A stretch of DNA of 64,000 nucleotides from Diacronema lutheri. Its lineage: Eukaryota; Haptophyta; Pavlovophyceae; Pavlovales; Pavlovaceae. The first letter of the stretch is position 1; each line of letters starts with the position of its first letter. Shown here piece after piece: positions 26,011-52,715 of the stretch. The translations under genes and the position numbers were made by a program. A model generated the notes under the pieces. It was not told the origin of the DNA. It did not search any database and was given only the letters and a program-made list of their open reading frames with translations. The stretch lies in NCBI GenBank assembly GCA_019448385.1, contig JAGTXO010000005.1, positions 1,426,001 through 1,490,000 of the forward strand, in the 5' to 3' direction.

Positions 26011-26744
26011 TCAGTTGAAACCCTGGAGCACCGGGTGGCCGGTGATGAACACCTGGTGAAGCATGCCGCCGAAGGCGAGCATCGCAAGGCGGCCGTTCTT
26101 GAGCTCCTTGAGCTCGAGGTCGGTGGAACCGCCCATCCTGAGCGGGTCAAAGCCAACCTTGCCGGGCACGCGCGCCGGGTCGGAGAACATGTCGCTCATC
26201 GTCATCTTGCCGCCGTTAGAGAAGAGCTCGAAGATGCCGATGGCGAGGAGGATCTGCGCCCAGGCCTCGACGGGCACCTTGGCAAACGCCTCAATCGGGT
26301 TGGGCGAGTCGTAGTACGGGCCGCCGAGCCGCACAAACTCGGGCACAACCAGCCCGACCACGCCGAGCATCGACACGCGGCCGTGCTTCAGCTCGGCCTC
26401 GCGCAGCCACTTGAGATCCATCGATTCCGAGAGATAAAGCGGGTCAAAGCCGACGTCGCCCAGCATGCCCTTACCGAGCTTTGAGGCCTTCTCCAGGAAT
26501 GGCACTGCGGGCATCATCTCCATGCGCACCGCGCTGCGCGGCGCGACGGGCTGCGGGGGCGCGCGGCGCCGCGGCGCGCGCACGGCGGCGATGCAGCACG
26601 TGAGGGCGAGCCATATTGGACATCTGCCGATGCCACACGTGCCAGCAAAGCTGCCGCGCCGGTGCGCGCGCCGCTCGGCGCCTTCGCGCGCACCCGCGCA
26701 GGGCCGGAGAAGGCCAGCGTCGACGCGGCGAAGACGGCGAGCAT
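26011..26744 (-). CDS. Fucoxanthin chlorophyll a/c-binding (LHC) protein
   Basis: Exon 1 is 26744-26694 (MLAVFAASTLAFSGPAR) and exon 2 is 26550-26011; the GT-AG intron is in phase 0 and the product has 196 residues. The join gives FSGPARPVAPRSAVRMEMM, a typical plastid bipartite presequence end. LHC motifs follow: GDVGFDPLYL, helix 1 with LREAELKHGRVSMLGVVG, a central helix (WAQILLAIGIFELF), PGKVGFDPLRMG, and helix 3 with LKELKNGRLAMLAFGGML. The conserved E and R of the ExxHGR/ExxNGR pairs bind chlorophyll and hold helices 1 and 3 together. The protein sits in the thylakoid membrane and collects light with fucoxanthin and chlorophyll c. It is the best marker of the organism's lineage in the window. 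Confidence 0.92.
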
Positions 26745-26916
26745 CGTTTATTACGAAATTATCGTGAAGAAGTGGAGGGGGTGTGGGCTTTTGAAATTCG
26801 TGCAGGTGAAGGCGCGTCGGGAGCTCCAACCCGGAACGGCTGCCGCTTTTGAAATAAACATTGTCCCGACCTGGACGAGGACCCGCCTCCCTCTGCCCAC
26901 CAGCGCACGTCCACTC
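26745..26916. promoter_or_regulatory. 172-bp bidirectional promoter gap with two TTTGAA elements
   Basis: An unusually AT-rich gap for this window (cgtttattacgaaattatc, cttttgaaataaac) between the divergent antenna and vWA genes. TTTGAA occurs at 26790-26795 (followed by attcgtgcagg) and 26848-26853. Confidence 0.45.
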
Positions 26917-28833
26917 ATGTCCGCCTTCGTGCTCGCCATGGATTGCGACGCCAAGCAGCGCGGCGCCAAGTCCAGCGGCGGCAAGACGCGCGGCGAGAAC
27001 GGCGCGCCCGAGTACACCGTTGCCGGCGCCGGCGACCCGCGCGTCGCGCTCTTCTACAAGCTCGTGCGCGGGCTCGCCGCGGACGACCTGCGGGGCCTCG
27101 TCCGCGCGGTTGAGGACAAGTTTGAGGAGACGCGCGATGTCGCCTTGCTGGTCGACCTGTTCCTCCTCGCGTTCCAGACGCGTGCGACGCGCGGCGACGG
27201 CAAGGGCGAGAAGGCGCTCTTCGTTGAGCTGCTCCTCGTCCTGCACGGCACGTACCCGCTCACTGTGTGCCGGCTTGTCGAGCTCGTACCGGCGTACGGG
27301 TACTGGAAGGACCTCCTCCTCTTGCTCGAGCAGCTTGCCGCGGCGGGAGATGGTGACGAGGCAATCAAGGCGCTGGAGGCGCGCATCCTCGCCATTTTTG
27401 CTGCCAAGCTCGACGAGGACGACGCCAAGCTGCGCGACGCGGTCGCTGCAGGCGAGCGGCCCGCACTCTCGCTCGCGGCCAAGTGGGCGCCGCGCGAGGG
27501 CCGCCACTTCGGCGCGCAAGCCAAGGCGCTGGCAAGCATACTCTTCCCGCGCGCGCCCGACGACGCCGCCGCGCGACGCCTCTACCGCCGGCGCGTCGCG
27601 TCGCTCAACCGCGCGCTCGAGACGGCCGAGGTGCTGATGTCTGCGCACCGCTACTCGGAGCTCGCCTTTGAGCGCGTACCGGCGCTGTGCTTGAAGCGCA
27701 ACCGCAAGGCGTTTTTGAACGAGCGGGTGAAGGGTAAGCTTACGCTTGCGCTCTTCGAGACGGGTGACCGCTTCCCTGACGACGCGGACCGCGTGGACGC
27801 GCGCAAGAAGCTGCGCAAGATTGCAGGTCGGCCGGGCGGGTTGCAGCTGCACGGCGCCGCGCTGCAGCCGCACGAGATCGCGCGCGAGGCGATGAAGAAA
27901 GGGCGCAGTACCCTCTCGGCGGCGGAAGTCGAGGTGCTCGACGCGCAGTGGGAGTCCCTCCGCGCCTCCGTGCGCGAGCAGCTCGCCAAGGTGGCCGCCG
28001 AACGCGTCGCGGACTGCGTGGGCGACGGAGCCGACGACTGCGTGGCGCGCGCGCCCAACCGCATCGACCTGGGCAAGCTTGTCGCGCTCGTGGACGTCTC
28101 GGGGAGCATGGCCGGCACGCCGATGGAGGTGGCGATCGCGCTCGGCATCCTCGTCTCCGAGCTGAGCGAGCCCGGGTTCGCGCATCGCGTGCTCACGTTC
28201 GAGGCCAAGCCGCGCTGGGTCGACCTCTCGTCGCACCGCGGCATCGTCGCAAAGGTGCGCGCGACGCGCGACGCGCCGTGGGGTGGCAACACCAACTTTG
28301 CCCGGGCGTGCGATCGCATCCTCGACGCTGCGGTCGAGGCCAAGCTCACGCCGGACCAGATCCCAGACCTGATCGTCTTCTCGGACATGCAGTTTGATGC
28401 GGCCGGCGGGCTCGGCAGCAGCACTTGGGAGACGCATTTCGAGCGGCTGCAGCGCCGGTTCAACGAGGTGGGGCGCAAAGTGTGCGGGCAGCCCTACCCC
28501 GCGCCACGCATTATCTTCTGGAACCTGCGCGCGAACACCGTCGGGCTGCCGGCGCAGGCAGGCTCGCCCAACGTACAGCTGCTCTCGGGCTTCTCTCCCG
28601 CGCTCCTCAAGCTCGTCCTCCAAGGCGAAGAGCTGGTCGCCATCGAAGACGAGGTGGCGGCGGAGGACGGCAAGGCGCGCGTCCTCAAGGTCGGGCCGAC
28701 GCCATACACGACGCTGCGCCAAGCGCTCGACGCGCCCGCCTTTGACGCCGTCCGCGTGGCAATCGCCGACGTCGGCGAGGGTGCGCTTTGCGATTACGAA
28801 TGTGTGACCTTTGAGGGCTTCGCGGCAGTCTGA
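26917..28833 (+). CDS. vWA-domain protein of the DUF2828 type
   Basis: 638 residues in one exon, starting MSAFVLAMDCDAK. The N-terminal half is helical (DPRVALFYKLVRGL, RDVALLVDLFLLAFQTRATRGDGKGEKALF, YGYWKDLLLLLEQL, RVASLNRALETAEVLMSAHRYSEL, FERVPALCLKRNRKAFL). The C-terminal half is a von Willebrand factor A domain with MIDAS residues DVSGSM (D393), a Thr-bearing GGNTNFARACDRIL and IVFSDMQFD. This arrangement matches the DUF2828/DUF7788 family of plants, fungi and large viruses, whose function is unknown. No targeting signal is seen. The stop is only 16 bp from the stop of the convergent epimerase gene. Confidence 0.82.
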   Translation: MSAFVLAMDCDAKQRGAKSSGGKTRGENGAPEYTVAGAGDPRVALFYKLVRGLAADDLRGLVRAVEDKFEETRDVALLVDLFLLAFQTRATRGDGKGEKALFVELLLVLHGTYPLTVCRLVELVPAYGYWKDLLLLLEQLAAAGDGDEAIKALEARILAIFAAKLDEDDAKLRDAVAAGERPALSLAAKWAPREGRHFGAQAKALASILFPRAPDDAAARRLYRRRVASLNRALETAEVLMSAHRYSELAFERVPALCLKRNRKAFLNERVKGKLTLALFETGDRFPDDADRVDARKKLRKIAGRPGGLQLHGAALQPHEIAREAMKKGRSTLSAAEVEVLDAQWESLRASVREQLAKVAAERVADCVGDGADDCVARAPNRIDLGKLVALVDVSGSMAGTPMEVAIALGILVSELSEPGFAHRVLTFEAKPRWVDLSSHRGIVAKVRATRDAPWGGNTNFARACDRILDAAVEAKLTPDQIPDLIVFSDMQFDAAGGLGSSTWETHFERLQRRFNEVGRKVCGQPYPAPRIIFWNLRANTVGLPAQAGSPNVQLLSGFSPALLKLVLQGEELVAIEDEVAAEDGKARVLKVGPTPYTTLRQALDAPAFDAVRVAIADVGEGALCDYECVTFEGFAAV

Positions 28834-31720: not shown

Positions 31721-32316
31721 TGCATATGCGCGCGCGGTCGTAGCCCCTGAGGATGCGGTAGGCCGAGGCAATGTCGCTATATATGGCGCGGTCCGGGCTG
31801 GTCCGGCCAGTGTACGGCTGAGAGTACGACCCGGGTCGTACAATCAAGGGTTAAACGCCAGCCAATGAGCGCTCGAGGGGTCGGGGCGAGGCTTAGGACG
31901 AGCTTAGGACCGAGACCCCCCTCCTGACCGGCCGATTATGAGTAGAATTCGGGGTCGAGCGGGCGCGGCGGACGGAGGGCCCGAGCCGGGCCGACGGAGG
32001 GTCCGACCCCGGAATGCGGGCGACCGGAAGGGCTTGGGTGATTGACGCCCAGTAGAATAGAATGGCGGATTCCGGGGGGGATCGCTACTGGCATCGCGCA
32101 AGCTGAGGCCCTCTGACTGACCGGACCGCGCCGAGTGCGCGTGCACCCCGTGGAGGGCGCGGCCACGGACAGTCTTCGCGACTGAGCTCGCCGCGGCTTA
32201 CCGTGTGCTGCGCCGGCGCGCTACTTGCCGTTGGCCGAGCTGCGGGTGTTGCGCACGGCCGTGTTGCGCAGCCAGCGCCTCGATGCGCCGGTGGCCAAGA
32301 CCTTGGCGCGCTTTGA
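31721..32316. other. Gene-less stretch with a perfect 18-bp palindrome and a TATA-like site
   Basis: No gene is supported. It contains ctatatatgg near 31778, a perfect 18-bp palindrome gtacgacccgggtcgtac at 31824-31841, and short direct repeats (cttaggac twice near 31892-31906). It has a lower CpG-alternation texture than its neighbours. It may mark the edge of old inserted sequence that continues to 35 kb. Confidence 0.5.
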
Positions 32317-32494
32317 CTAAGCGACCTCGGCCTGCACAGACTCGAACGCGCGCGTGAACTCGAGGCGTTGCAGGTGGCGAGCACGTGGGTTCGCGTAGGA
32401 GGTCTTGTACTCGATGGCCTGGCTGTCGACCGACGAGAGCTTGGGCGAGTTCGGCGGCACGTCGGCGCACTCGGGCTCGGTGCGCGGCCTTGCC

Positions 32495-32527
<33 letters not shown>

Positions 32528-33330
32528 CTCTCGGACTCGATGCCCGGCTCTGCCTTCGTGGGCGCGGTCGCGGGCACGGGCGCGCCCTCGACCTCGTCGC
32601 GGTTGAAGACATCGATCTCGACGCACACGCCGTGGTCCTTGTAGTCGGCGGCCTCGCTGTCGTTCGCATAAACCTCGGGCGAACTCGCAACGAGCGACGA
32701 TATCTCGGCGTGGAGCCAGCAGATCTCACGCTGCACCGCGTGACCAGGCTCTTGAGCGCTCCGTTGAAAGAGTCACTCACGGAGGCGGTCGCTGCACCAC
32801 ACCAGATAGCCACCGAGCTTGTAAGCGTGCACGTGCGCCCGTGCGAGGTCCTTGGAGAGCGCATCGGCGCGCGCGCACATGCCGTCGCATGATTTGGCCG
32901 GTGTCATGCAGTGCTGCCAAGGCCTGGCGCTCGGCGTTGAGCGTGTCGTGATCCACGCGAACGAGCTGCAACCAGCTGCAGCAGCCGCGCGACGCCGCGG
33001 TCGCCGACGATGCGCTAAAGCACGTGGCCCATGAGGTGCGCGCGGCACGTGGCGAGCGCGACATTCTTGCGCAGCAGCGCGAGTATCCGGGAGCCGGCCC
33101 ACGCACTTGAGCGCGTAGATTCGGCCGCACATGCACGCGCCGACGACCGAGTCGGCGGGCCCGCCGTCGAGCCAAAAGTTGACATCGTCCGCATCGCGGC
33201 GGCGGGCGCGACGCGCCGAAGGATGCGCACGCGGTAGTGCCGGTCGACGAGCAGGTCGTCGCCGACGATCTCGTCGGGCAGCAGCTCGGAGAAGTTCTGG
33301 GGGTGCATGTTGTGCGAGCGTGCCACGAGA
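32317..33330 (-). pseudogene. Decayed coding-like patches, unrecognised
   Basis: Several short minus-strand stretches in different frames look like protein (HPQNFSELLPDEIVGDDLLV near 33310-33250, DDVNFWLDGGPADSVVGACM near 33190-33125, and an acidic Pro/Ala repeat APAPAPAPAPARPR near 32510) but none forms an intact gene. I do not recognise the family. They lie next to a copia fossil on the same strand, so they may be remains of an inserted element; the origin is open. Confidence 0.35.
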
Positions 33331-33988: not shown

Positions 33989-34888
33989 TCAGCGGCGGGC
34001 ATCCATGAAGCTCGTAACGTGGCGAGCGAACGTGGCGTTGTCTGTGGCCTTCGTCATGATGTCGGCGTGGTTGAGCGAGGTGTGCACCTTGCTCACAACG
34101 ATCCGACCCTTCTCCTGCGCGTCGCGCACGTAGTGGTACTTGACCTCGACGTGCTTGGTGCGCCGGTGGTGCACCGGGTTGTTGACGAGATCGATCGTCC
34201 CCTAATTGTCTTCAAAGATCTCCGTCGGCGAGGCCGACGGCTGGGGGAGGAAGTCGATGATGCTCCGGAGGTAGTCGACTTCGCGGCAGCATTCGCTCAA
34301 TGCGACATACTCCGCCTCGCAGCTGCTGAGCGAGATGGTGCTCTGCAAGCCGCTGTGCCACGAGATCGGCGCACCGTTGAAGAACACGATGTAGCCGGTC
34401 GTGGACTTGCGCTGCACGGGGTCGTTGGCCCAGTCCGCGTCGGCAAACGCGCGCAGCGTCGTGCACTCGGCGTCCTCGGCGTACTTGAAGAGCAAGCCGA
34501 GCTGCTCGGTGCCGCGCAGGTACTGCAGCACGCGACGTGCGGCGCGCAGGTCGACGGCCCTCGGCCTCGACATCCGCCGCGCCAGCATGTTCACCGCGTG
34601 CGCAAGATCGGGCCGGCACGTCACCATCGCGAACATCAGCCCTCCCGTGATGGATTGGTACATGAGCTTGTCCGCCGTCGAGAGCAGCTCGTCGTCGTCG
34701 TCGTCTGACGACACGATCGATCGCGCCTCGACCTCCGGCGTCGGCGCCGGTTGTCCTGTCGTTGCCTCGAAGCGCTCGAGCAGCCCGGCGACGTACGGTC
34801 CGAGGGCTGAGCGCACGAGGCCAGCGCCCGTCGCCGCGCGTCGCGACGGAGTCATTTGCGGCTGCATCTGCCGCAGCGGCGATGCCAA
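33989..34888 (-). mobile_element. Ty1/copia retrotransposon fossil, 3' end of pol (RNase H)
   Basis: The minus strand carries the C-terminal part of a copia pol: the connection and RNase H region (SITGGLMFAMVTCRPDLAHA, RVLQYLRGTEQLGLLF, FADADWANDPVQRKSTTGYI, SLSSCEAEYVALSE) and the terminal TKHVEVKYHYVRD ... LNHADIMTK tail. Only about 0.9 kb survives; integrase and most of the reverse transcriptase are absent and no flanking LTR pair was found. It is broken and looks moderately old. It is oriented opposite to the large locus that follows. Confidence 0.88.
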
Positions 34889-35683
34889 AAGGGCACTTGA
34901 TCGTCGGCGACGTCCTCATCGGCGGCGGTATCACCGCTCGGCAGTGCCTGCCGGTGGCCCGTGTGATTTCACGCACGCTGCGATGGTGGGGTCGCCGCGA
35001 GCGCGCGCGGTCGTCGGCGCGGCCAGGGCCCGCGCGCGCGTGCAACGTGCGTCGCGCGGGCGTGGGCGGGCGTGAGGGTGTTCAGGGCGCGCGCGGCGGG
35101 CTCCGCACGCGCACCACTGCGCTCACTTGCGAGGTATCTGACGACGCCGCTGCTCCCAGAGTCTGATGCGCGCCGCGCGCGTGCGCGTATGAGTATGTGT
35201 GCGACGCAGACGTGGGCCGCGGATGCAGCCACATTCCGGATACCGGATTTCCGTTCACCCGCGAAAAGCGTCCCCGCAGGCCTGCCGACCTGTTGACCCG
35301 CCTTGTTGACGCCTTCGACGCGTTGGGGACGCGATGAACGCCGCGACCACGGGCTGCGTTGCGCCAAGCATCGCGCCGCGTGTTTCCGCCCACCCGCCGA
35401 CCGAGCCGTCGTCTCCGCCGCGGCCGGCGCCCCCGCCGGCCATCGCGCTCGACGCGCGCATCGTCGATGTGCGCGTTGCCGCACCGGCGCAGAGCGCGCG
35501 CGCGCGCGGCGATGTGCGCGCCGTCGCGTCGCGCCGGCCCACTTCTGCGCGCCGGGCGGCCGCGCGCGCGTGCGTCCGCCGCACGCGCTCCGCCCGCCAC
35601 CGGCGCGCGCCGGCGGCCACTCGCTCACGCGCGCGCGTGCGCCCCCGCGCACCCCGGCGTGCGCACGCGCGGCCGACGCGCAG
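34889..35683. other. Spacer upstream of the accessory locus
   Basis: No confident gene. A plus-strand frame opens at an ATG at 35334 (MNAATTGCVAPSIAPRVS) and reads sensibly for about 45 codons before GC-alternating sequence; it could be a first exon spliced to the acceptor at 35683, but nothing proves it. The rest is GC-rich and featureless. Confidence 0.4.
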
Positions 35684-36601
35684 GCGATCGGCGCCGACGG
35701 TGCCACGAAGGGGACGCGCTTAGCAGGCGCTCTCCCGTGCGCAATGCGGGCCGACATGAAGTACGTGTGCGAGTGGATCGGCCGGCTCAAGGGGGAGACA
35801 CTCGCGCGCCTTGCGTGCACGCTCTTCGCCGGCGACGAGGGCACCGCGTACCCGTGGCTCGCGATCGCGCTCGCGCAGGTCATGGCGAGCGACCGCGCGC
35901 CCATCTCGGCGTGCCTCGAGCTTGAGAGGCGCCTCGGCCTCGCCGCCTACGAGGCCGAGGTGGTCGGGTGGTACGCGAGCCGTGTGTTGGCGGTCCTCGG
36001 GCGCACCGCCGCCCGCCGCAACGGCGCGGCGCAGCTCGAGCGCGCCCGGCGCGACGGGACGCAGCTCGGCATGCTCACGCTCGCGCGCGGCCGCCCGCTC
36101 CCGTCGCACGTCGACGTCGAGGACATCTTGCGCCAGGCGGTCGCAAAGGGCACGCTCTTCGTGGCCGTCGCGTTCGTCGGCGCGCTGCTGGGCACGTGCC
36201 GCTCCTCGCGCACCTACGGCCCGCGCCATCCGTGGGTCGTCGCGCTGCGCTCGCTGCTCGTCGAGCTGCTCGGGATGCGCACGCTCCGCCCTAGCCTTCG
36301 GCGCCGCATCGCGGCGCTGTGCACGGATCCGGGCGTCGCGCCCCGCAAGCAGCGCGCGACGCGCGCGCCGTCTGCGTCGGACACGTGCCCGCGCCTCGCG
36401 CTCCACGTCAACGACTCTGTGCGCACGGACTCGCGCAGCGACGAGGAGGGGTGCGCGTTGCTCAGCGCGCGAGCCGCGGGCGCCGCGGTGATGGCGTCGA
36501 CAGCCGCGAATTCGCGCGCCTTGGAGCGGGCGCGGCGAGACGCGGCGGCCAGGGTGCGCGCACGCGCGCGCGCGCGCGCGCGCAGCGCGCCGCCCGCGTA
36601 G
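35684..36601 (+). CDS. NOT1-like MIF4G (CAF1-binding) domain protein or fragment
   Basis: An open frame of about 300 codons, with a possible internal start at 35744 (MRADMKYVCEW). Residues matching the CAF1-binding MIF4G domain of CCR4-NOT subunit NOT1 appear in order: YPWLAIALAQVM, YEAEVVGWYASRVLAVLG, then the strongest block, LGMLTLARGRPL, DVEDILRQAVAKGTLFVAVAF, YGPRHPWVVALRSLLVEL, and a final RRRIAALC. In NOT1 this domain docks the CAF1 deadenylase on the scaffold. Full NOT1 exceeds 2000 residues, and the flanking NOT1 regions are not recognised here, so this is a captured, duplicated or reduced piece. The 3' end runs into a GC dinucleotide stretch that may be an intron. Confidence 0.65.
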   Translation, partial: AIGADGATKGTRLAGALPCAMRADMKYVCEWIGRLKGETLARLACTLFAGDEGTAYPWLAIALAQVMASDRAPISACLELERRLGLAAYEAEVVGWYASRVLAVLGRTAARRNGAAQLERARRDGTQLGMLTLARGRPLPSHVDVEDILRQAVAKGTLFVAVAFVGALLGTCRSSRTYGPRHPWVVALRSLLVELLGMRTLRPSLRRRIAALCTDPGVAPRKQRATRAPSASDTCPRLALHVNDSVRTDSRSDEEGCALLSARAAGAAVMASTAANSRALERARRDAAARVRARARARARSAPPA

Positions 36602-39300: not shown

Positions 39301-42300
39301 GGGGCGCCACCTCGACCGCACCTTTGCCAGCATCGCCGCGCTGGCCGCGCGGCTCGACATGCTGGGCGCGCAAGTCGGCGCGCTGCGCGCCGCCGACGGG
39401 CCCGACGCCCCGCCGGTGCACACCTCGCCCGTCGTCAACTCGCTCGTCGACGCCCCGCCCGTCCCTGCCGTGCACAACTCGCCCGTCGTCAACTCGCTCG
39501 TCGACACCCCGCCCGTCCCTGCCGTGTACAACTCGCCCGTCGTCAACTCGCTCGTCGACACCCCGCTCGTTCTCCTCGTGCACACCTCGCCCGTCGTCAA
39601 CTCGCTCGTCGACACCCCGCTCGTCCCTGCCGTGTACAACTCGCCCGTCGTCAACTCGCTCGTCGACACCCCGCCCGTCCCCCTCATGCACACCTCGCCC
39701 GTCGTCAACTCGCTCGTCGACGCCCCGCTCGTCCCTGCCGTGTACAACTTGCCCGTCGTCAACTCGCTCGTCGACATCCCGCTCGTTCCCCTCGTGCACA
39801 CCTCGCCCGTCGTCAACTCGCTCGTCGACGCCCCGCTCGTCCCTGCCGTGTACAACTCGCCCGTCGTCAACTCGCTCGTCGACATCCCGCCCGTCCCCCT
39901 CATGCACACCTCGCCCGTCGTCAACTCGCTCGTCGACACCCCGCTCGTCCCTGCCGTGTACAACTCGCCCGTCGTCAACTCGCTCGTCGACACCCCGCCC
40001 GTCCCCCTCATGCACACCTCGCCCGTCGTCAACTCGCTCGTCGACGCCCCGCTCGTCCCTGCCGTGTACAACTCGCCCGTCGTCAACTCGCTCGTCGACA
40101 TCCCGCCCGTCCCCCTCATGCACACCTCGCCCGTCGTCAACTCGCTCGTCGACACCCCGCTCGTCCCTGCCGTGTACAACTCGCCCGTCGTCAACTCGCT
40201 CGTCGACATCCCGCTCGTTCCCCTCGTGCACACCTCGCCCGTCGTCAACTCGCTCGTCGACACCCCGCTCGTTCCCCTCGTGCACACCTCGCCCATCGTC
40301 AGCTCGCTCGTCGACACCCCGCCCGTCCCCGTCGTGCACACCTCGCCCGTCGCCAGCTCGCTCGTCGACACCCCGCTCGTCCCTGCCGTGTACAACTCGC
40401 CCGTCGTCAACTCGCTCGTCGACACCCCGCCCGTCCCCGTCGTGCACACCTCGCCCGTCGCCAGCTCGCTCGTCGACACCCCGCTCGTCCCTGCCGTGTA
40501 CAACTCGCCCGTCGTCAACTCGCTCGTCGACACCCCGCCCGTCCCTGCCGTGTACAACTCGCCCGTCGCCAGCTCGCTCGTCGACACCCCGCTCGTCCCT
40601 GCCGTGTACAACTCGCCCGTCGTCAACTCGCTCGTCGACACCCCGCCCGTCCCCCTCATGCACACCTCGCCCGTCGTCAACTCGCTCGTCGACGCCCCGC
40701 CCGTCCCCCTCATGCACACCTCGCCCGTCGTCAACTCGCTCGTCGACGCCCCGCTCGTCCCTGCCGTGTACAACTCGCCCGTCGTCAACTCGCTCGTCGA
40801 CACCCCGCTCGTTCCCCTCGTGCACACCTCGCCCGTCGTCAACTCGCTCGTCGACACCCCGCCCGTCCCCGCCGTGCACAACTCGCCCGTCGTCAACTCG
40901 CTCGTCGACACCCCGCCAGTCCCCCTCATGCACACCTCGCCCGTCGTCAACTCGCTCGTCGACACCCCGCCCGTCCCCGCTCCGCCCGTGAACACCTCGC
41001 TCCCCGTCACTCCGCCCGTGAAGACCTCGCCTATCGTCAATTCGCGCATCGCCACCTCGTCGATCGCGACCTGGCTTGCCGTTACCTCGCCCACCGCCAC
41101 ATCGCCCGCCACCGCCCCGCCCGCCGACACCCCACCCGCCGACACCCCGCCCGCCGCCGCCCCGCCCGCCGCCGCCGAGCTCGCCGTGCGGCGCGCTGCG
41201 TCGTACGCGGACGCGGACGCCGCAGCCGAGCCCGCGCTGGCGGTGGCGCCACGCGAGACGCGGCCCGCCGGCGGTGTCGCACGCCGTGCCGACGCCTCGG
41301 CGGCGTGCGCCGCCGTCGCGGCCGAGCCTATCGCCGGCCTCGTGCCGTGGCTGCCCGGCGCGCTCGCCGTCCTGGCGTCGCGGCTGCACGCGCCGCCGAG
41401 CGGCGCGGCCGCCGACGAGGCGGAGGGCGCGCGTCGCGAGCTCGCCGTGCTCGCCGCGACCCTCCGCGCGGCGGTGCGCACGCGCGCGCTCGCGGCGCGC
41501 CCGCCGCCCGCGCACGGCGCTGGCGCCGCGGGCGCAGCCGCGCCCGTGGGCAACGATTGCCTGCTCGCCGCCGTCCTCGCGGCGCTGCCCGCTGCGGCGG
41601 CGGCGCGTGTCGGCCCGCCGGGCGCGATGCGCGTGGCGCTGGTCGAGTGGCTGCTCGCCAACCCGGACGCGCACGACGGCTGGACGGTTGAGGAGATCAA
41701 CGCGCTGCGCGCGGGCGGCGCGTGCGGCCGGCCGCTGCCCGCGCAGCTCGCGTGCGCGGCGCTCGCGGGCGCCTTCGAGATCGACGTCCTGCTCGCCGTC
41801 GCGCGCGGGCGCGGGGACGTCGAGTGGACGCTGCACGCCGGCGGAGACGGCGGCGTGGCGGGCGCGCGCGGCCCTCGCCCGCTCGCCGCCGTGTGCGCAA
41901 GGGCGGCGGCGGCCGCGCGGCGCCGGCACGGCGGCGCGCGCGGCGGCCGCGCCGAGCCCGTCGGCCACGCGACGCCGTGGGCGTGGGGGCGCGACCGCGC
42001 GGCGGACGAGCGGCCCGTGGGCGCGGCGCCGCGCCGCTTCGCGCGCGGCGATGCCGTGCTCGTCGGCGCGGCACGGACGCGCCGCGCGCGCGCCTCGGCG
42101 GCGGGCGCGCCCGCCGCCGCCGCGGCGGCGCCGGCGCCGGCCGCCGATGACCGCCGAGCGCTCCTCGACGCCGCCGTCCAGCGCGCGAGCCAGGCGTCGA
42201 GCGAGCTCGCAGCGATCGTGTCGGGCGGCGAGGGTCTCGTCGCGCTCGAGGCGGCGTGCTGCGCGGCGCACTCGGGCGGCGGCGGCGGCGGCGCCCCGAG

Positions 42301-42920: not shown

Positions 42921-45900
42921 GTGGTCGCCGCGCTCGTCGCGGCGCGCACGCGCTACCGCACGGCGAGCGCGCTCGAGGGGGCGGCGGCCGCGGCGGCGGC
43001 GTGCACGGCGGCGCGCGATGCGGCCGCGCGCGCGCTGCCCGCGCGCGCGCTGTCCGCGCGCGCGGCCGCCGGCGCGCCCGCCGTGCGCCTCGACGCGCGC
43101 GACGAGGAGCTGGCGCTCGCCGCGCACGACATCGCGCGGGCGGCGATCGGCCCGCAGGGCTCGTCGGCCGCCGCATTCGCGCTCGGCGCGCTCGGCGACG
43201 CGCCGCCCTGCCTGATCAGCGGTGGGCGCGCCGCGGCGCTGCACGGCGACGTGCACGGCTGCGCCAAGGCGCTGCGCCACCGGAGCGCGCACGAGCTGCC
43301 GCCCGAGCTGCTCAGCGCCTACTACCTGGCCGTGCTCTCGGTGCGGCCGGGCACGCTGCAGCTGACGGAGCCGCAGCTCGCAGAGGTCGCGCCGCCCTCG
43401 GATTTGGGCGCCCGCGCCGCGCTCGCGCACGTGCGCGCGGCCGTCGAGCGGCTCGCGGGCGCGCGGTGCTGCGCGGCGCTCGTGCGCGCCGGCGACGGGC
43501 CGCGCGGGAGCGGCGTCGCGTTCGTGCCGCCGAACGAGCTGGCGCGGGCGGGGACGGCGGCGGAGCCCCTGCTCGTCGTGCTCGCCCGCTGTCCGGCGGG
43601 CGCGGGCGGCCTCTTCGTCGAGGGCGAGGGCGGCGGCGCGCACGCCGACGCGCAGACGTCCAAGCTCGCGACGCACCTGCTCGCCGACGCGCGCGCCGGG
43701 TGGGGGCGCGACGTCGTCGCGCTCTGCCTCGAGGCGGCCAACCCGCTCTGGTTCTGCCCGCGGCTGCAGGCGCTGCACTGCGCGCGCGACGGTGCGGTCA
43801 CGCAGCAGGCGGATCCGTGCGCCGGCGGGCACGCGCGCCGCGCCGCCTGCGCCGGCAACGCCGCCGGCGCCGACGCGGACGCTGCCGGCGGCGCGGCGGG
43901 CGCGGCCGAGCCGCGGCGGAGCGAGGCCGCGGCGGGCGCCATCAACGCGGCGGTGCTCGCGGCCGTGCGCGCGCGTTACGCGCTCGCCGCGACGTACGAG
44001 TTCGCCGGTGGGCGCGACAGCGGCAGATGGCTCGTCGAGTGCGCGGCGCGCGCCGGCGGCGCGGGCGAGCAGCGCCCGAGCGCCGTCGCGCAACTGCACG
44101 CGGCGGGCGGCGTCGGGACGCTGGCCGTCTGGCCGGCGATTGATGCGCACGCGGCCGTCGTCTCCGTGCGCACGCCGCACCTCAGCAGCGCGCTGCGCAA
44201 GCGCGGCTGCGGCAACGTCGTCGCCGCATTCGACGACATGCGGCGGAGCATGGCGCTGCTCGCGCGCGCGGCGCGCGACGCGCAGGCCGTCGTCGCGGCG
44301 GCGATGGCCGGCCGCGCGGGCAACAAGGCGGGCGCTGCGTCGCGCGCGCTGCTCGACGCGGCGGTTGCCTGGGCGCGCGACGAGCGCGGCTCCCTCGCGC
44401 CGCCCGACGCAGCGGGCGGCCCGCCCGACGACGAGGACGAGGCGGACGACCGCCCGTCCGCGCGGGCGCGCGTCGGGCCGCCCGCCGGGCCGAGCGGCCT
44501 CGATTCGGCGGGCGAGCCGGCGGCGGCGCTCCGCGCCGTCACGACGGGTGGCGCAGGGCCGAGCACCGCGCCTCGCGCCGCCGCGCCGCGCGCGGCGGCG
44601 CGAGGCGCGCCGGCCCCTGCCGCCGCCCGTGGCCGAGGCGCGGTCGCCGGCGTGACGGTCGAAGCCGAGCCGCCGCGCGCGCCGCTGGGCGAGCGTGGCC
44701 GGGCGGGCACCGCGGCGGCCGCGGACGCGCCCGTCGCCGCCGCCGCCGGGCTGGCCACCGCCGGGCCGGGCGCGGCGGCCGTTTCGGGCGCGACGGCGGA
44801 CGAGGAGGAGGCGCGGCGCGACGCGCGTGGCGGCGGCGCCGGCGGGCGCGGCGGAGGCGGGGGCGGCCGCTCGTCGGGCGGCGCGCGCGGTGGCGGCGGG
44901 CGCGGCGGTGGGCGTGGCGGTGGCGTGGGCGACGAGGGTGCGCTCGCACGCGCGCGCACGCCGCCCGCGCGTCGCGCGCCGGCGCGGGCGGCGGCGCAGC
45001 CCCACGGGGCGGTCGACGCCGGCGCCTCGGGCGCGGACGAGCCCGGCGTGCGAGCAGCCGCTGCCGGCGGTGGCGGCGGCGGCGCGGCGGGCGGCGGCGG
45101 CGGCGGCGGGCGCGGGCGCGGCGGCGGCGGCGGGCGCGGCGGCGGGCGCGGCGGCGGGCGCGGCGGCGGGCGCGGCAGTGGCGGGCGCGGCGGCGGCGGC
45201 GCGGGTGGCGCCGGCTCCGCCAGGGCGCCCCGCCCCGGCCCCGCGTTTGCGCAACTCGAGCCGCCGACACGTCCGCCCGGTGGGCGTATCGTTGACGCCT
45301 TCGAGGAGGTGGATGCGCTCGCGAAGCTGGCGACTGACCTCGAGACGCGCGGTGGCGATGCGGCGGCGCTGCGGTCGGTGCTCGCGCGCGTGCGGGCGGG
45401 CGCACCCGCGCAGAACACCCCCGCGTGGCTCGAGGAGCGCCTCGACTACACGACGGGCAGCACCGCGCGCACCGTGCTCGGGGGCGACGGCGCGATGCTC
45501 GACAACCTCGTCGAGGTGCAGGCGCGCCGCGTGGCGACTGTGGGCATCACGACGCCGGAGATGACGCAGGGCCACATCAACGAGCCGCTGGCGCTCGCGA
45601 GGTTTGTCCAAGCGCACGGCGGCACCATCGTGCGGAATCTGCCGCTCGTGCCGTGGGAGCACTCGCAGCCGCACGCGCCGCTCGCCCATTCGGCCGACGC
45701 GCTGTGGCTCGACCCCAAGGACACGCTGCACTACGTCGAGGTCAAGACGAAGACGGGCGCGCGCGAGGTCAAGATGCACGCCGCCGGTCCGCCGTCGACG
45801 GACGTGCCGCAGCTGCAGCTCGGCATGCTCTGCCTCGGCCTCGCGTCGTCCGTGTACCTGCAGGACGCACCCTTCGTCAACGTCCGACCGTTGGCGCACG

Positions 45901-48090
45901 TGGTGCGCCGGGACGCGAGGTGGGTCGACGTTGCGCTCCCGCTCGTCGCGCGGCACTGGCGGCGCGTGCGCGCGCGCCGAGCGGAGCTCAAGCTCGAGGC
46001 CGCCAACGCGGCGCCGCCCCGGCTGCGGCCGAACCCGCGCGTGCGCAAGCTCGAGCGAGCGCGTGGCGTGCCGCAGGGCGTGCACGAGGGCGCGCGCCGA
46101 CGGCCCCTCGCCCTCGCCGCGAGCGCCAACGTCCCCGCCGTGCTCGGCGCGGCGCTGCACGCGCTGTTTGGCACCACGTTTGCGCACGCCGGCGACGGCG
46201 CCGTTGACGTTGACGCGGGCGCCATCGGCGGCCTCGTGCGGCGCGCGCTGCGCGCCCTGCGCGCGCCCGCGCTCAACGCCAACGCGCCAAAGGAGACGAT
46301 CGCGGCGGAGGTGGCGGGGGAGGTCGCGGCGCGGGACGCCGCGGTCGAGCTCGCGGCGGCGCTCGGCGCGAGCGGCGCGGGCGCGGGCGCGGCGGACATG
46401 GACCCGGCCGCGCTCGTCGCGCAGCTCGCCGACGCGCTGCTGGACGAGAGCGACGGAGGCGTCCCCACCGTGACGTACGCGCCGGTCGACGGCGCGGAGG
46501 CGCCGACCGCAGCCGAATTCGGCGCGTGGCTGCGGGGCGAGCTGAGTGGCGAGGACGCGCTCGCGGCGGTGGCCGTGCCGCGAGCGGTCGTCGTCCGCGT
46601 TGCGCCGGGCGGCGGCGCGCCGCGTGGTGGCGCGCCGCCGACGCTCGCGCAGAGCGTGCCGCTCGACGACGGCGGTGCGGCCGACCGGGCTGTGGCGCCG
46701 GTGCGCGGCGCGGAGGCCGGAGGTTCGGCCGACGCGCCGACGCGCCGCGCCGCGCGCGCGCGCCTGCAGCTGCGCGGCGTGCTCGTGCGCAGCGGCCGCG
46801 CGCCGGCGAACGTGGTGGCCTTCGCGCGCCACGGTGGGATGTGGGTGCGCTGCGCGGGCGGGCGGGCGCGACTCGCGCGCTGGGCCGAGATGGCGCGCGC
46901 GGCGGCGGGCGTCGAGTCGGACGCCGACGGGCTGCGACGCTGGAGTCTGTGCGCGCTGCTCTACGAGCGCACCGACCCGCCTGCGACGGCCGATGCGACG
47001 GCGCGCGCGGGCCCAGGCGCGGGCGGCGCGGGCGCGGGCGGCGGCGGCAGCGGCAGCGGCGCGGGCGCGGGCGCGTGTGGCAGCGGCAGCGGCGCAGGCG
47101 GCAGCGGCGCGGGCGCGGGTGGCAACGACGACGGCGCGCGGGGAGCGGCCGAGGACGAGGGCGCGACGAGCGGGGCGCCGGGCAAGCGGCCGATTAGCAT
47201 CCGCCGGTCGGCGCGGGTCGCGGCGTTGCCGCGCGACCCGTTTGCGGTCGATCGACGCTGGCTCGAGGGCGTGAGCAGGCCGGGCTCGGAGGGCGCGCGC
47301 GACGCTGCGGCGCGTCGAGCGGCGAGCCGCCCGACCGTCGAGTACGCGGAGCGGCTGCTCGCCGAGCGGGCCGTCGGCGCCGCGCGCGCGCAGCGCCACC
47401 GCGCCGCGCTCGCGCCGCCGCACCCCAAGCCGCTCGCGCACCTCGACGCGCCGCCGCACGCCCGGTGCGCGAGCGAGAAGGTCTTCAAAGCGGCGTACGA
47501 GGCGTCGCTCGAGGGGCGCGTGGCGGCGAGCTGCCGCGGCGCGCGCCTGGCCGAGGAGGGGCGGCGCGCCATCGCTCAGCGGCGCAGGCCCGAGCTGCCG
47601 CTCGCCGTCCTCGCCGCGGAGGCGGCGCACATCGCGCAGGTGCACACCCTGCCGGGCGGCGATGCGCGCGTGCTGCACATGCTCACGCCCGCACAGCTGC
47701 TCGCGCTCGAGGCCGCCGGCGCGACGGAGGCCGCGGGTGCGATGGAGATGGCCGACGCGGAGGCGCCCGCGGCGGGCACCGACGCGCTCGCGCGCGCGCT
47801 CGGCGCGGCGAACGCGGCGGGCAAGCCGGCGCGCGTGCTCGTGCCCCTCCCCATGAGCCAGGTCGGCGCGGCGCTGCTCGTGCTGCACGTGACCGCCGAC
47901 GGCGCCGTGGCGCGCGCGGACGGCTTCGTGCCGACGCGCGCGACGCACCCGACGACGGGCCAGCCGCGGTGGGCGCACGCGCGCGCGCACGGCGCGCTGC
48001 GGCGCGCCGCGGCGCTGCTCGCGCCCAGCGTGGCGGTGTGCGTGCGGCGCGCGCCGCAGCCGACGCGCGCGTCCAACTCGCGCGTCGCCA
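42921..48090 (+). CDS. Large protein with YqaJ-type (lambda exonuclease fold) nuclease domain
   Basis: A very long frame. The first 650 residues are unrecognised but globular in part (LLSAYYLAVLSVRPGTLQLT, FVPPNELARAGTAAEPLLVV, LWFCPRLQALHC). A Gly-rich GGGR linker spans 44.8-45.2 kb. The nuclease lies at about 45.3-46.0 kb: WLEERLDYTTGSTARTVLGG, GITTPEMTQGHINEPLALAR (catalytic Glu), HSADALWL (Asp), YVEVKTKTG (Glu-x-Lys) and VPQLQLGMLCLGLA (Gln-bearing helix), the full motif order of YqaJ viral recombinases. Such enzymes resect dsDNA ends 5' to 3' for single-strand annealing. After it come more unknown domains and a C-terminal region with LHMLTPAQLLALEAAG. No helicase or annealing protein is recognised beside it. 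Confidence 0.75.
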
Positions 48091-49265
48091 TGCTTCTCTT
48101 TCCGAGCGCGTCGCGGCCGCCGCAGACGCCGAGGGCGGCGTCGCCGCCGTCGCCGCGCTCGCCACCGCGCGCGGCATCGACGACGCGCTGCACGCGGTGC
48201 GGCGGCAGCTCGCGCTCCTGGTCGAGTGGGCGACCGTCGACGGCGTCGCGCCGACGACGCGCGCGCGCGCCGAGGCCGGCGACGCGGACGTCGCCGACGT
48301 GGCCGCCGACGCCGAGGCCGTTGCCGCGTCCGTCGCAGCCGCCGCGGCCGACGCGGCCGACGCGCTGCGCGCGTCGATGAGCGCGCCGGGCGGGACGGTC
48401 CGCGTCGACGCCTTTGCGGCGGCATGCACCTGGCTCACGCGGCAGTCGCAGCAGCGCCGGACGCTGCGCGTGGCGCTCGCGCTGCGCGACGGGCCGGAGC
48501 TCGTGCGCCAGGGGCGCGAGGCGCTGGCCGGCGCGTGCGCGCTGCTCGCCGTCGTGCTGTGGCGCGAGGGCGCCGACGCGCCCGCCGGGCTGCTCGTCGC
48601 CGACCAGCCAAGGCGTCGCCACGGCGCGGCGGCCAACTTTGTGTGCTACGCCTTTGCGAACGAGGGGGGGCGCGAGGCGCGCGACCTCGCGGAGGGGCTC
48701 GTCGCGGAGCTGCGCTCGGCGTGCGTGGGCCCGGCCGCCGAGGCCGGCGGGCCGCCGGCGCTGCGCGACGCGGTGGTCGAGCTGCTCGTGCGCGCGCCCG
48801 GCGGCGAGGGCGGCGTTGAGGCGGCGCGCTGCGCGGCGGTGCTCGACTGCCTGCACGGGCTGATGACGCGCAGCATCGGCGAGCACGGCATCGGCGACGG
48901 TGGCGGCCTGCAGGCGGCGCGCCCGCCGGCCGGCAGCGGCCATCCGTGCGAGGGATTTGCGGCGCGCGTGGGCGCGCCGGCCGGCCCGCCGCCCGAGCTG
49001 CCGGCCGCGCCGCCCGCCGCGTCGCCGGACGAGCCGATGCCCGACGCGCCGCCGCGCGAAGAGTTGCCAGACGAGCCGATGCCCGACGCGCTGTCGGCGC
49101 CACCGCGCGGCCGCTCGGCGGCGCCACCGCGCGGCCGCTCGGCGGCGCGCGCGCGCGTCCACGGCGGCGCCTCGGCGCCGCCGCCGACGCGCCGCGGCCG
49201 CGGCCGCGGCGCGTCGGCGCCGCCGTCGGACGCGCGCGGCCGCGGCCGCTCGGCGTCGCCGGCGC

Positions 49266-49296
<31 letters not shown>

Positions 49297-51604
49297 CGGC
49301 GCGTCGGGCGGCGGCGAGTCGGGCGGCGCGGGCGCGCGCGATGCGGGCGGGGGCGGCACGACGGGCGGCCGAGGCCGCGCCAAGGGCGACGGCACGACGG
49401 GCGTCGGCGCACGAGGCGGGCGTGGCTCGACGCGCAACACGGGGCCGCACGCTGTGCACGACGAGGCGCGCGACTGGATGAACGCGCTCGTCGTGGAGGT
49501 GCAGCACACAGTCGTGCGCGTCTACGACGCGCTCAACGTCCAGGCTCGCTGCGAGGGCCAAGCGGAGACGACCGTGCCAAACAAGACGGTCGTGCAGGCC
49601 GTCTTCCAGAGCATCGGCGTCGGTGGCACGAGGCACCGTACGGACGGCGAATCGGGCCACGCCCGCGCCAAGGCGCTGTACAAGGAGGCGTGCCGCCGTG
49701 TGATGGATGCGGATCGGCCGTGCAGCAAGCGCAAGCTGGGAGACGTGATGGACTTTGCCGCGACGGAGGTGGCGACGGCGTGCATCGAGCACCCGCGGCG
49801 CGTCGTGTCGCCGCTGCTCAAGGCGATTGTGCGCTACGCCGTGGAGCGCGACGCGAACGCGCCTCGCAAGCGCGAAGAGCGCAACGCGCTGGCCAAGGCG
49901 CTCTCGACGCTGCTGCTCACGGGCGACGCAAGTGGCGCGGCGGGCGACGCGCCGATGGCGCTCAGGCCGCACCTGGGCGCGATGGTCCTCAAGGGCGTGG
50001 ACTACACGTGCGCATCGACCGAGGAGTGGACAGGCACCCGCCACTACACCAACTACTTCCTCAAGCGGAAGGAGCACCGGAAAGAGGGCCACGCGCTGCT
50101 GCGCCGGCTCGCGGGCGTGTACACCGAGCTGACCGGCACCGCGCCACCGTACGGCATCCTGCCGCGGCGCCAGGCGCAGGTGCCGCGCTACGTGCGCCTC
50201 GACGCGCGTGCAATCTGGGCCAGCGCGTCCGAGACGGACCGCACCGCCGTGCGGGCTTGGGCGCGCGGGCTGCTCAACCACGACGGCACGCCGGCCGTGC
50301 CGTTCAACAAGGAAGGCCGACCGGTGACGAGCGACGTGCGGATGAGGTACCGCATCTTTGCGCTCGTCTTCGACATCTCCAATCGCGCCTTCGACTACGC
50401 CGGGCGCGAGCGGCCGCCCGCCGGCCTCGCCGCCGACGCGCGGCGGACGTGGGTGGGGCGCACGCCGTTGCCGCCCGCGCACCTGCCGGGCCGGGAGCCC
50501 GTCACGTCGGTCGACACCGACGGCGTCGGCGTGCACGCGTTTTGCCACGTGCGCGTGCCGGCGCCCGTCGAGCCGTCGGACAGCGCGGCGCCGGCGACGG
50601 ACGGCGCCGAGGCGGGCACGGCCGCCGCTGGCGCGCGCGAGGGCGAGTGGCTCGCGCGCCGCTGCCGCGAGCCGCGCGCTCCGCTGCTGCACGCGTCGGC
50701 CCGGCAGCTGCATCTGCTCGTGCGCACGGGCCTGCGCAACGTCGTGGCCATCGACGCCGGGCCATGCGGCTGGACGACCTTCTCGCGCCTCCCGCGGCGC
50801 GGCGCGGTCAGCACGCAGATGACGCAGCGGCAGCGCGCGCGCGGCGCCGGCTTTGCGCGGCGCGCGGATGCGACCTTCAACGCGCGGCGCGCGACGCGCA
50901 CGGACGCGCAGGGCAAATTCGTCGTCGAGGCGCTCGAGGCGGCGCTGGGGGACCTGCCGAGCGCCAACGCCGTGGACAAGGACGACTTCCTCGCCCGCCG
51001 CGACGGTGGGCAGGCGGTGCGCGACCGTGCGGGGCCGGCCGTCTACCTCCCGCGCGAGCGGCGGCGCGAGCGCTGGCGCAGCGACGGCGCGGCGCGCGGC
51101 CGTGCGGCGGCGCGCGCGGCAGAGGCGGTCATCGGGGCGCACTGCGTCGACGGCGTGAAGAAGTCGCAGCTGCTCGTCTGCGTCGGCGACTGGCTGCGCG
51201 ACCAGCGCGCCGGCCGCATGCGTGGCCGCGGGCGGCCGGGCGCGCACCCAAAGGGCGCGCCGCCCGCCTTCCTCGTCGGCGTGACGCGCGCGCTGCGCGC
51301 GCGCGGCGTGGCGGTGGTCTACGTTCCCGAGCCGTACACGAGCATGCACTGCTCGCGCGTGCGCGAGGTCACGCCGGGCAAGCTGCAGCGCTGCTGCGCG
51401 GTCGTCGAGCAGGACTTTCTGCCGGCCGCTCGCGGCTCAGCACGCAAGGTCCACGCGCTCTTGCGCTGCCCGCGCTGCGACGGTGGGCGCATGGTGGAGC
51501 ACCGCGACCTGGCGGGCGCGCGCGGCATCTACCACGACGTGCTCGACATGATCGCGCAGCTCGACGGGCGGGCCGACGACATCACCTCGACGCCCGATCG
51601 CTAG
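48090..51604 (+). CDS. Fanzor-type (eukaryotic TnpB-like) RuvC nuclease with long N-terminal region
   Basis: The nuclease part is about 49.42-51.60 kb (some 720 residues); the 5' part is unknown and ends in a Gly/Arg/Ser-rich linker. The N-terminal half of the nuclease has ILPRRQAQVPRYVRLDARAI, a pattern seen before the RuvC domain in Fanzors. RuvC-I is VVAIDAGPCGWTTF (Asp at 50752); a GVKKSQLLVCVGDW strand and the helix AFLVGVTRALRARG follow; RuvC-II is VVYVPEPYTSMHCSR (Glu at 51329), with the Glu directly before the TS-Cys motif as in Fanzors; a Cys-rich zinc-ribbon (RCC, RCPRC) leads to RuvC-III, EHRDLAGARGI (Asp at 51506). TnpB and Fanzor are RNA-guided DNA endonucleases whose guide RNA is encoded at the element's 3' end. 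The three acidic residues are kept, so the catalytic site looks whole. Confidence 0.8.
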
Positions 51605-51842: not shown

Positions 51843-52639
51843 GTGGCGACCGTCAGCACCGACGACCGTGCCGCGACCTGTGCGTCGCGAGACGGCCGAT
51901 TGCGCGGAGAACGCTCTTCGTGCCGTGAGACTGTTCGCCCGTTGGCGCGGCTTGGGGGGGGGTTGGGGGGGATGTGGGGCTGGCAAGGCGAGGGGCCGGG
52001 GGAGGGGGCGGGCATGGCATGGGGTTGAACAGGCGTCGACGATGGACGCGCGCGCGTGAGCGCAGGCAGGTGCGACGACGCGCGCCTGCTGCAGCGAGCA
52101 GCGCCCCGCGCGCGCCACGCGGTGTTGCGTGCGCGCCCCTGCGCTCGGCCCTTGGGCCCACCCACCAGCGCCCGATCGCATTTGCCGGCGCGACCGCCCA
52201 CTGTCGCACAGGGCGTGCCAAGCCGGCCTGGTCCAGCGCCTTGTGCGAGAGGGGCCGTTCCGCGAGAGCGCACCGGGTGCGCGCGCGCGCCATCGCGCAT
52301 CCGGCCGGCCCTTCGCGCATCCTCGCGCCAGCCGACCCGAGCTTGTGTCCCGCGTGGCTGTGCGCAGGCGTTCGTTCGCGCTGCAGACGCGGTAGCGCTG
52401 TTCGCGCCGCCGCGCAGCACTGCTTCCGCGTGGCGACGCAGCGTCGCCCACGGTGGCGGCGAGGCGAGGACCGCTGGGCGCCCGTGTGGTGACCGATACG
52501 CTCAGGCTGCGCGCGCTCGCCAGGACGTCGTGTACACGGCATTGTCCCCAAGCCTACACTGGTAGGCAATTCGAGGCTACACCGTCGCCCTTCGCGCGCG
52601 CATCAGGGGGCTCACGCCCCTTCCCAAACACGCGCAAGG

Positions 52640-52662
52640 GGGTGTGCCCAAGTGGCACACCC
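52640..52662. other. Perfect 9-bp hairpin, 3' side of the spacer
   Basis: gggtgtgcc, loop caagt, ggcacaccc, only 54 bp from the stop of the convergent TIR/PA gene. It may act in the 3' UTR of that gene or belong to the end of the accessory locus. Confidence 0.6.
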
Positions 52663-52715
52663 ATCGGATTCGGACAAACCGTATATACGCCTAGGTCGTC
52701 CACGCGAGCAGCGCG

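Follow-up and report, generated by a model that had tools for sequence, protein, structure and literature searches.

How a Fanzor nuclease benefits the transposon that carries it is a standing question in the field, and a locus in the genome of the haptophyte alga Diacronema lutheri raises it in an uncommon form. The window, i.e., the whole stretch of DNA that was analysed, comprises 64,000 nucleotides (C82:1426001-1490000), and the accompanying genome-wide scans covered 103 contigs with 43,492,796 bases. A first-pass annotation of the window had described a large, diverged Fanzor-type RNA-guided nuclease gene that may still be active and is embedded in an unusually long coding locus. Judged from its sequence, it is a genuine Fanzor-family gene, ordinary in kind and unusual in its setting. 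The explanation we favour, with moderate confidence, is that the gene makes up the 3'-terminal part of a giant (~21 kb) element which would spread by RNA-guided cutting, resection and copying.

The Fanzor gene and its family membership

The Fanzor protein region (49436-51601) lies on the plus strand, within an ORF of 1379 aa (47465-51604) that closes with the stop codon TAG at 51602-51604; the coding frame begins at 49421 and not at 49420, as first annotated. With a G+C content of 75-83% around the gene, each of the six frames contains long ORFs, so that ORF length is poor evidence of coding. The unusual length of the coding locus, taken alone, is a composition effect; what is special is that the gene is located within a 20.9-kb mobile element.

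The RuvC and zinc-ribbon motifs named in the first-pass annotation were all located in ORF 47465-51604. These are RuvC-I with Asp445 (50753-50755) in VVAIDAGPCGW, RuvC-II with the alternative Glu637 (51329-51331) ahead of the TS-Cys motif in PEPYTSMHC, six residues before Cys644, RuvC-III with Asp696 of the pair Arg695-Asp696 (51506-51508) in EHRDLAGARGI, and a C4 zinc finger (51350-51478) of Cys644, Cys658/659, Cys683 and Cys686, the latter two contained in RCPRC. The block that had been called IPRY-like actually reads VPRY. The first Cys pair, CSRV, does differ from CxxC, as had been pointed out; however, this is not an oddity of one copy, given that four relatives examined read CSRV, CSMP, CSMP and CSRL at this place. 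All five proteins, the window protein included, have a further Cys 13-16 residues after CSxx. The shared CSxx is, therefore, a trait of this Fanzor branch.

With D445, T640-S641, the C4 cysteines and R695-D696, the spacing of the window protein, D-X(194)-TS-XX-C4-X(9)-RD, fits the Fanzor/TnpB motif D-X(125,275)-[TS][TS]XX-C4 zinc finger-X(5,50)-RD as given in the motif description by Bao and Jurka (2013; PMC3627910). According to Yoon 2023 (PMC10711439), a RuvC-II Glu that precedes the zinc finger by six residues (Ealt) is typical of Fanzors, Ealt and the RuvC-I motif DPG are rare outside of them, and DPG occurs near exclusively in Fanzors. Glu637 corresponds to Ealt, and its spacing of six residues to Cys644 is the same in four relatives examined. 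RuvC-I of the window protein, however, reads DAG, which lowers, without excluding, Fanzor membership, because the source says “near exclusively”; in relatives, RuvC-I reads DPG (P0005, P0007), DPN (the abundant genomic family described below, P0004), DTG (P0003) or DAG (P0006).

Five database homologues are 45-68% identical to the Fanzor in the alignment, from which L005 was excluded due to a stop in its translation; all motifs are kept in the three homologues that are long enough (P0003, P0004, P0005) and in the abundant genomic copy. The profile search that had been proposed as a check does find PF07282 (Cas12f1-like TNB) in the window protein with E=6.3e-5, but at 23.5 bits this match stays below the curated cut-off of 26.3. 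Six of the seven members of the family alignment carry PF07282 (best E=1.8e-6), which in the window covers the TNB or RuvC-II to RuvC-III zinc-ribbon region (51293-51529, plus strand; residues 376-454 of the translation of 50168-51601), and three of the seven weakly match the NCBIfam model guided_TnpB (best E=0.016). No NCBIfam family, guided_TnpB included, matched the window Fanzor protein; PDB sequence searches with it matched no solved structure, and PHROGs yielded a single unrelated weak match (E=0.095). A match to Cas12f1 (9i8y, E=0.97) covered the right stretch, but was suggestive only and was lost with a trimmed profile. AlphaFold models of the 727-aa and the 450-aa region have low mean pLDDT values (42.2 and 48.8, respectively), and Foldseek of the low-confidence 450-aa model returned unrelated chains, with no PDB match at E<=0.001.

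Among known systems, Fanzor1 of eukaryotic transposons, as described by Bao and Jurka 2013 (PMC3627910) and Saito 2023 (PMC10432273), resembles the window Fanzor in motif spacing, Ealt and coding by a mobile element; it differs in that DAG here replaces DPG and CSxx the first CxxC. Differences also concern the setting: in the present family, the giant ORF that the Fanzor closes also encodes a RecE/YqaJ-like exonuclease, and the elements measure 21-31 kb, as opposed to ~2.1 kb of Spu-1. Bacterial TnpB of IS200/IS605 has the TNB domain profile and a proposed cut-and-copy role (PMC10432273) in common with the window Fanzor, whereas the repositioned Glu, a candidate intron in the gene and the lack of a Y1 transposase (PF01797, zero matches in the genome) set the present system apart.

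A 20.9-kb mobile element in the window

The Fanzor gene is located at the 3' end of a whole transposable element of 20.9 kb (31777-52689, plus strand), as evident from a twin copy, C74:350436-370433 on the minus strand. Identity between the two copies is 99.5% across 9.8 kb and 98.9% across 3.4 kb; their flanks are unrelated and both ends stop sharply, so that sharp ends, a second copy and counted relatives all show the Fanzor to be encoded by a mobile element. The left terminus CTATATATGGCGCGG... (31777-31797, plus strand) is conserved in the abundant family. Genome-wide, at least 41 matches were obtained for the left 304 bp (279 candidates) and 14 for the right 200 bp, some of them partial. 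The idea that the left 3.4 kb constitute a separate copia element was rejected, since the left end is common to the abundant family. An RRM-protein gene ends 56 bp upstream of the element and a convergent PA-domain gene ends 26 bp downstream; the insertion, therefore, lies in an 82-bp gap between host genes. When both flanks of one insertion were joined to search for an empty site, none was found. Other, older copies of the same branch show protein identities of 78% (C53), 91% (C7), 78% (C82:518653, with one stop) and 76% (C9:1955373). Outside the element, an ORF at 26662-28830 (plus strand) matches DUF7788 and DUF2828 (E=2.7e-47 and 1e-29, respectively).

A RecE/YqaJ-like exonuclease domain (45384-45980, plus strand) is recognised by phrog_434 (E=1.7e-8) and by PF09588 (E=0.0083, under the cut-off). 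It contains GHINEP at 45570, SADAL...VEVK at 45690-45752 and QLQLGM at 45810, motifs which we take, together with the D...ExK pattern, to have catalytic meaning in an exonuclease of the RecE/YqaJ-like type. In the window copy, the exonuclease does not share the frame of the Fanzor, the switch lying near 48.1 kb; in the C74 copy, the frame around the Fanzor is open for 4,321 aa. Pfam scans of the ORFs of the window element revealed no chromodomain, PIF1 or UCH.

The window element also carries cargo (35297-36598, plus strand) with a CNOT1 CAF1-binding-like domain (36056-36328; PF16415, E=3e-13). This cargo is absent from the C74 copy, which carries other, shorter sequence in place of 35.2-39.4 kb of the window, and it has a 36% identical match on C37, where the open frame measures 2,805 aa; it is possibly an old gene capture. 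A 54-bp tandem repeat with 29 copies occupies 39408-40980 inside the element. Nested in the left part is an ORF (34205-34915, minus strand) that, as we assume, resembles the RNase H end of Ty1/copia; it has no Pfam match, and the stretch is present in the C74 copy, too. Near the left end (31939-33323), several minus-strand frames are conserved across branches and are possibly one spliced gene.

An abundant and young sister family

The Fanzor search of the genome returned 645 candidates, with 63 matches listed and 61 scored; 53 of the 63 listed are 53-54% identical to the window Fanzor over its residues 248-727, and none of these 53 has an internal stop. The 21-mers at the ends of this sister family, matched with at most two mismatches, occur at 227 right and 264 left ends genome-wide, while reversed controls gave zero. 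One sister copy, C82:464969-495910, was traced end to end; it is 30.9 kb long, its left end matches that of the window element over 797 bp at 94.7% identity and its right end closes with ...CATCTATACG. For pairing, 88 right ends out of 100 listed (227 in total) were set against 100 listed left ends (264 in total), and a right end was joined to the closest left end on its strand, at most 36 kb away. At least 58 elements could be paired in this way on contigs C1-C42, totalling 1.63 Mb or 3.8% of the genome, with the provision that a few pairs may be wrong. Fifty of the 58 paired copies fall into four size classes between 21.4 and 31.1 kb (11 near 21.5 kb, six at 26.0-26.5 kb, eight at 29.1-29.4 kb and 25 at 30.95-31.07 kb; eight are of other size). 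By extrapolation, the family would amount to ~6 Mb if all 227 right ends mark elements with a mean length of 28 kb. The genome paper of Diacronema lutheri gives 22.9% repeats (PMC8379373).

Between the sister copies compared, identity is 98.6-99.7% across stretches of 2.7-14.8 kb and 99.8-99.9% for Fanzor codons; this near-identity implies that the burst is recent. One 21.5-kb copy, on C27, was sampled over its first 10 kb; it carries 2.4 kb of different sequence in place of ~10 kb of the 31-kb copy, the latter including a 1,345-codon ORF without Pfam match. The left 2.4 kb of a 21.5-kb copy (C27:64285-66662) are 99.96% identical to the 31-kb C82 element and, in the aligned kilobases beyond, the two diverge by 4-10%, pointing to mosaic elements or gene conversion.

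Upstream of a giant ORF, the sister elements encode a PIF1-like helicase (E=9.2e-25) and a ubiquitin carboxyl-terminal hydrolase (UCH; E=5.3e-8), and the giant ORF itself contains a RecE-like exonuclease (phrog_434, E=1.8e-15; PF09588, E=0.012, under the cut-off), a chromodomain (E=3.9e-12) and, at its end, the Fanzor. The halves of the sister Fanzor lie in different frames, between which an open frame is maintained by any of three GT-AG joins. A 128-nt join of this type, a candidate intron, falls exactly where the window gene runs continuous, and the frame so joined is open for 4,995 codons. Two relatives of the helicase protein were found, of which one is 100% identical and the other 40% identical over a quarter of the protein; its N-terminal domain may be one that binds single strands. 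Genome-wide, PIF1 has at least 150 matches (414 candidates), many of which occur at the fixed offset within the element, but not all are in elements.

The unusual point, as far as predicted ORFs can tell, appears to be that one giant ORF unites a Fanzor with a RecE-like exonuclease, with PIF1 in the same recently multiplied element, in which no transposase was recognised. The exonuclease is akin to the RecE or lambda-type (YqaJ) exonucleases of phages and giant viruses, given the phrog_434 match and D...ExK, but here it belongs to a eukaryotic mobile element and is encoded in the giant ORF of the Fanzor. A Fanzor-YqaJ pairing was not found in the PMC library searched. Likewise, PMC titles and abstract openings on Fanzor or YqaJ transposons, Replitrons, algae and haptophytes contain no such giant element, one review there names Fanzors together with haptophytes, none of the three papers there on Diacronema lutheri with genome and transposable elements deals by title with its transposons, and the string “transpos” is absent from the main text searched of the genome paper (PMC8379373).

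This gene content also bears on the possibility that the locus is an integrated virus or virus-derived element and no transposon. YqaJ is mentioned in giant-virus papers, Fanzors occur in large DNA viruses according to PMC3627910, and a size of 21-31 kb would suit such an origin. However, Pfam and PHROG matches of the scanned ORFs include no capsid, polymerase or packaging gene, and single-protein scans of viral contigs with Fanzor and helicase, whose reach is close relatives, found none; we regard a viral nature as very improbable.

Mode of movement

For target sites, 13 insertions were taken up, of which one is without right flank; comparison of the remaining 12 in five registers revealed no target-site duplication beyond chance, the longest shared string being three bases. 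Pfam scans of the main ORFs of the element found no other transposase, with the qualification that ORFs were scanned frame by frame, such that a split or very diverged transposase could escape. A PHROG “transposase” match (E=0.16) was dismissed, as it coincided with the end that encodes the Fanzor. Tyrosine recombinases (PF00589), the enzymes of Crypton-type elements, occur at 16 places in the genome, against 227 right and 264 left element ends, and none of these places is in the 58 paired elements on contigs C1-C42; three of the 16 places (C50, C69, C92) are on contigs beyond this range.

A Helitron-type rolling-circle transposon with a captured Fanzor, a reading compatible with the explanation we favour, would have a precedent in Helitron2 with Fanzor1 from Chlamydomonas (CRe-1, 2, 3), which, in the account of these elements in PMC3627910, likewise has an algal host, a Fanzor, a hairpin near the 3' end and, at intact ends, no target-site duplication. 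The PIF1-like helicase of the abundant elements, together with the many PIF1 matches genome-wide, and a 3' hairpin (52640-52662) 27 nt from the element end argue in the same direction, as does the absence of a target-site duplication in the 12 insertions. On the other hand, Helitron_like_N (PF14214) matches the genome at a single place, on C63, and no Rep (HUH) domain, which Helitrons have fused to a PIF1-like helicase, was found in the ORFs scanned. The element ends, CTATATA...TATACG, are unlike the TC...CTRR of Helitrons, which insert at A-T, and the flanks follow no A/T or T-rich rule. Compared with Helitron2, the present elements, thus, have no recognised Rep domain, other termini and a RecE-like exonuclease, to which the abundant family adds the ubiquitin hydrolase and the chromodomain. 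In sum, we consider a Helitron rather unlikely. We give still less credence to the bolder view that the family is a new class, i.e., a giant eukaryotic element without conventional transposase in which Fanzor, RecE-like exonuclease (from the same giant gene) and PIF1 would jointly cut, resect and, by recombination, copy 20-30 kb into target sites.

The structured right end

In line with the favoured RNA-guided mechanism, the right end of the window element (52560-52689, plus strand) is a candidate for the 3' part of an omega RNA. Its predicted RNA fold has z=-2.81, with two of 200 shuffles as good, and shorter right-end stretches of the window element and two further copies have fold z values of -1.7 to -2.6. 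Aligned with seven of the nine relatives fetched (L065 and L068 were left out), the right end shows weak covariation, involving two of 23 pairs and an unfavourable covariation term. Within the window, no Rfam family reaches its gathering score. This structured right end marks the place where an omega RNA would be expected, as a candidate only.

Selection and the role of the nuclease

Between the window Fanzor and its C74 twin, there are 14 codon differences, with dN/dS ~0.2. Against the older copies, dN/dS is 0.79 (C53), 0.87 (C7), 0.63 (C82:518653) and 0.94 (C9:1955373) without codon-position bias, and against the abundant family it is 0.95-0.96. Because G+C constrains third positions, dS is likely too low and unreliable in these comparisons. 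This pattern can be read as decay of old copies. The description of the gene as a diverged Fanzor with three acidic positions and a repositioned Glu stands, but the suggestion that it may still be active is left divided between dN/dS ~0.2 against the twin and 0.63-0.94 against the older copies.

It is on this ground that the main rival has to be weighed, in which the Fanzor would be a decayed, dispensable passenger of an element moved by a conventional transposase that is now undetected or acts in trans. The high dN/dS values against the older copies, the missing codon-position bias and the frame switch near 48.1 kb in the window copy would fit this view. It is opposed by the low value against the twin, albeit from 14 differences only, by a frame open in 53/53 of the abundant-family matches listed, and by an acidic triad retained in relatives ~50% identical; overall, a passenger role seems unlikely, albeit a more serious contender than a Helitron.

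The favoured explanation, in contrast, assigns the nuclease a part in spreading the element. A cut-and-copy role has been proposed in PMC10432273. Applied here, the right end would give rise to the omega RNA, with flanking host DNA as the guide; the Fanzor would cut either a sister copy or an empty site that matches the guide; the break would be resected by the RecE/YqaJ-like exonuclease encoded alongside; and, in the abundant relatives, the PIF1-like helicase may help to copy the element in by recombination. Through cutting, resection and copying, the element would therefore be retained and multiplied, as we propose; RNA guidance, cutting and the repair-copy step are what we infer. If true, a role of Fanzors in cutting, resecting and copying would be directly testable in a living host, since this young and very successful family, with hundreds of ends, resides in a sequenced, culturable alga.

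The family may also have left its mark on the assembly, for which a read N50 of 23.5 kb is given in PMC8379373. With reads of this N50, near-identical 31-kb repeats probably broke the assembly at element ends, so that, if the explanation holds, the element family would account for several assembly breaks as well. Several contig ends lie within a few bases of element ends, e.g., at C1:2, C5:1, C6:2, C12:2 and C3:444899.
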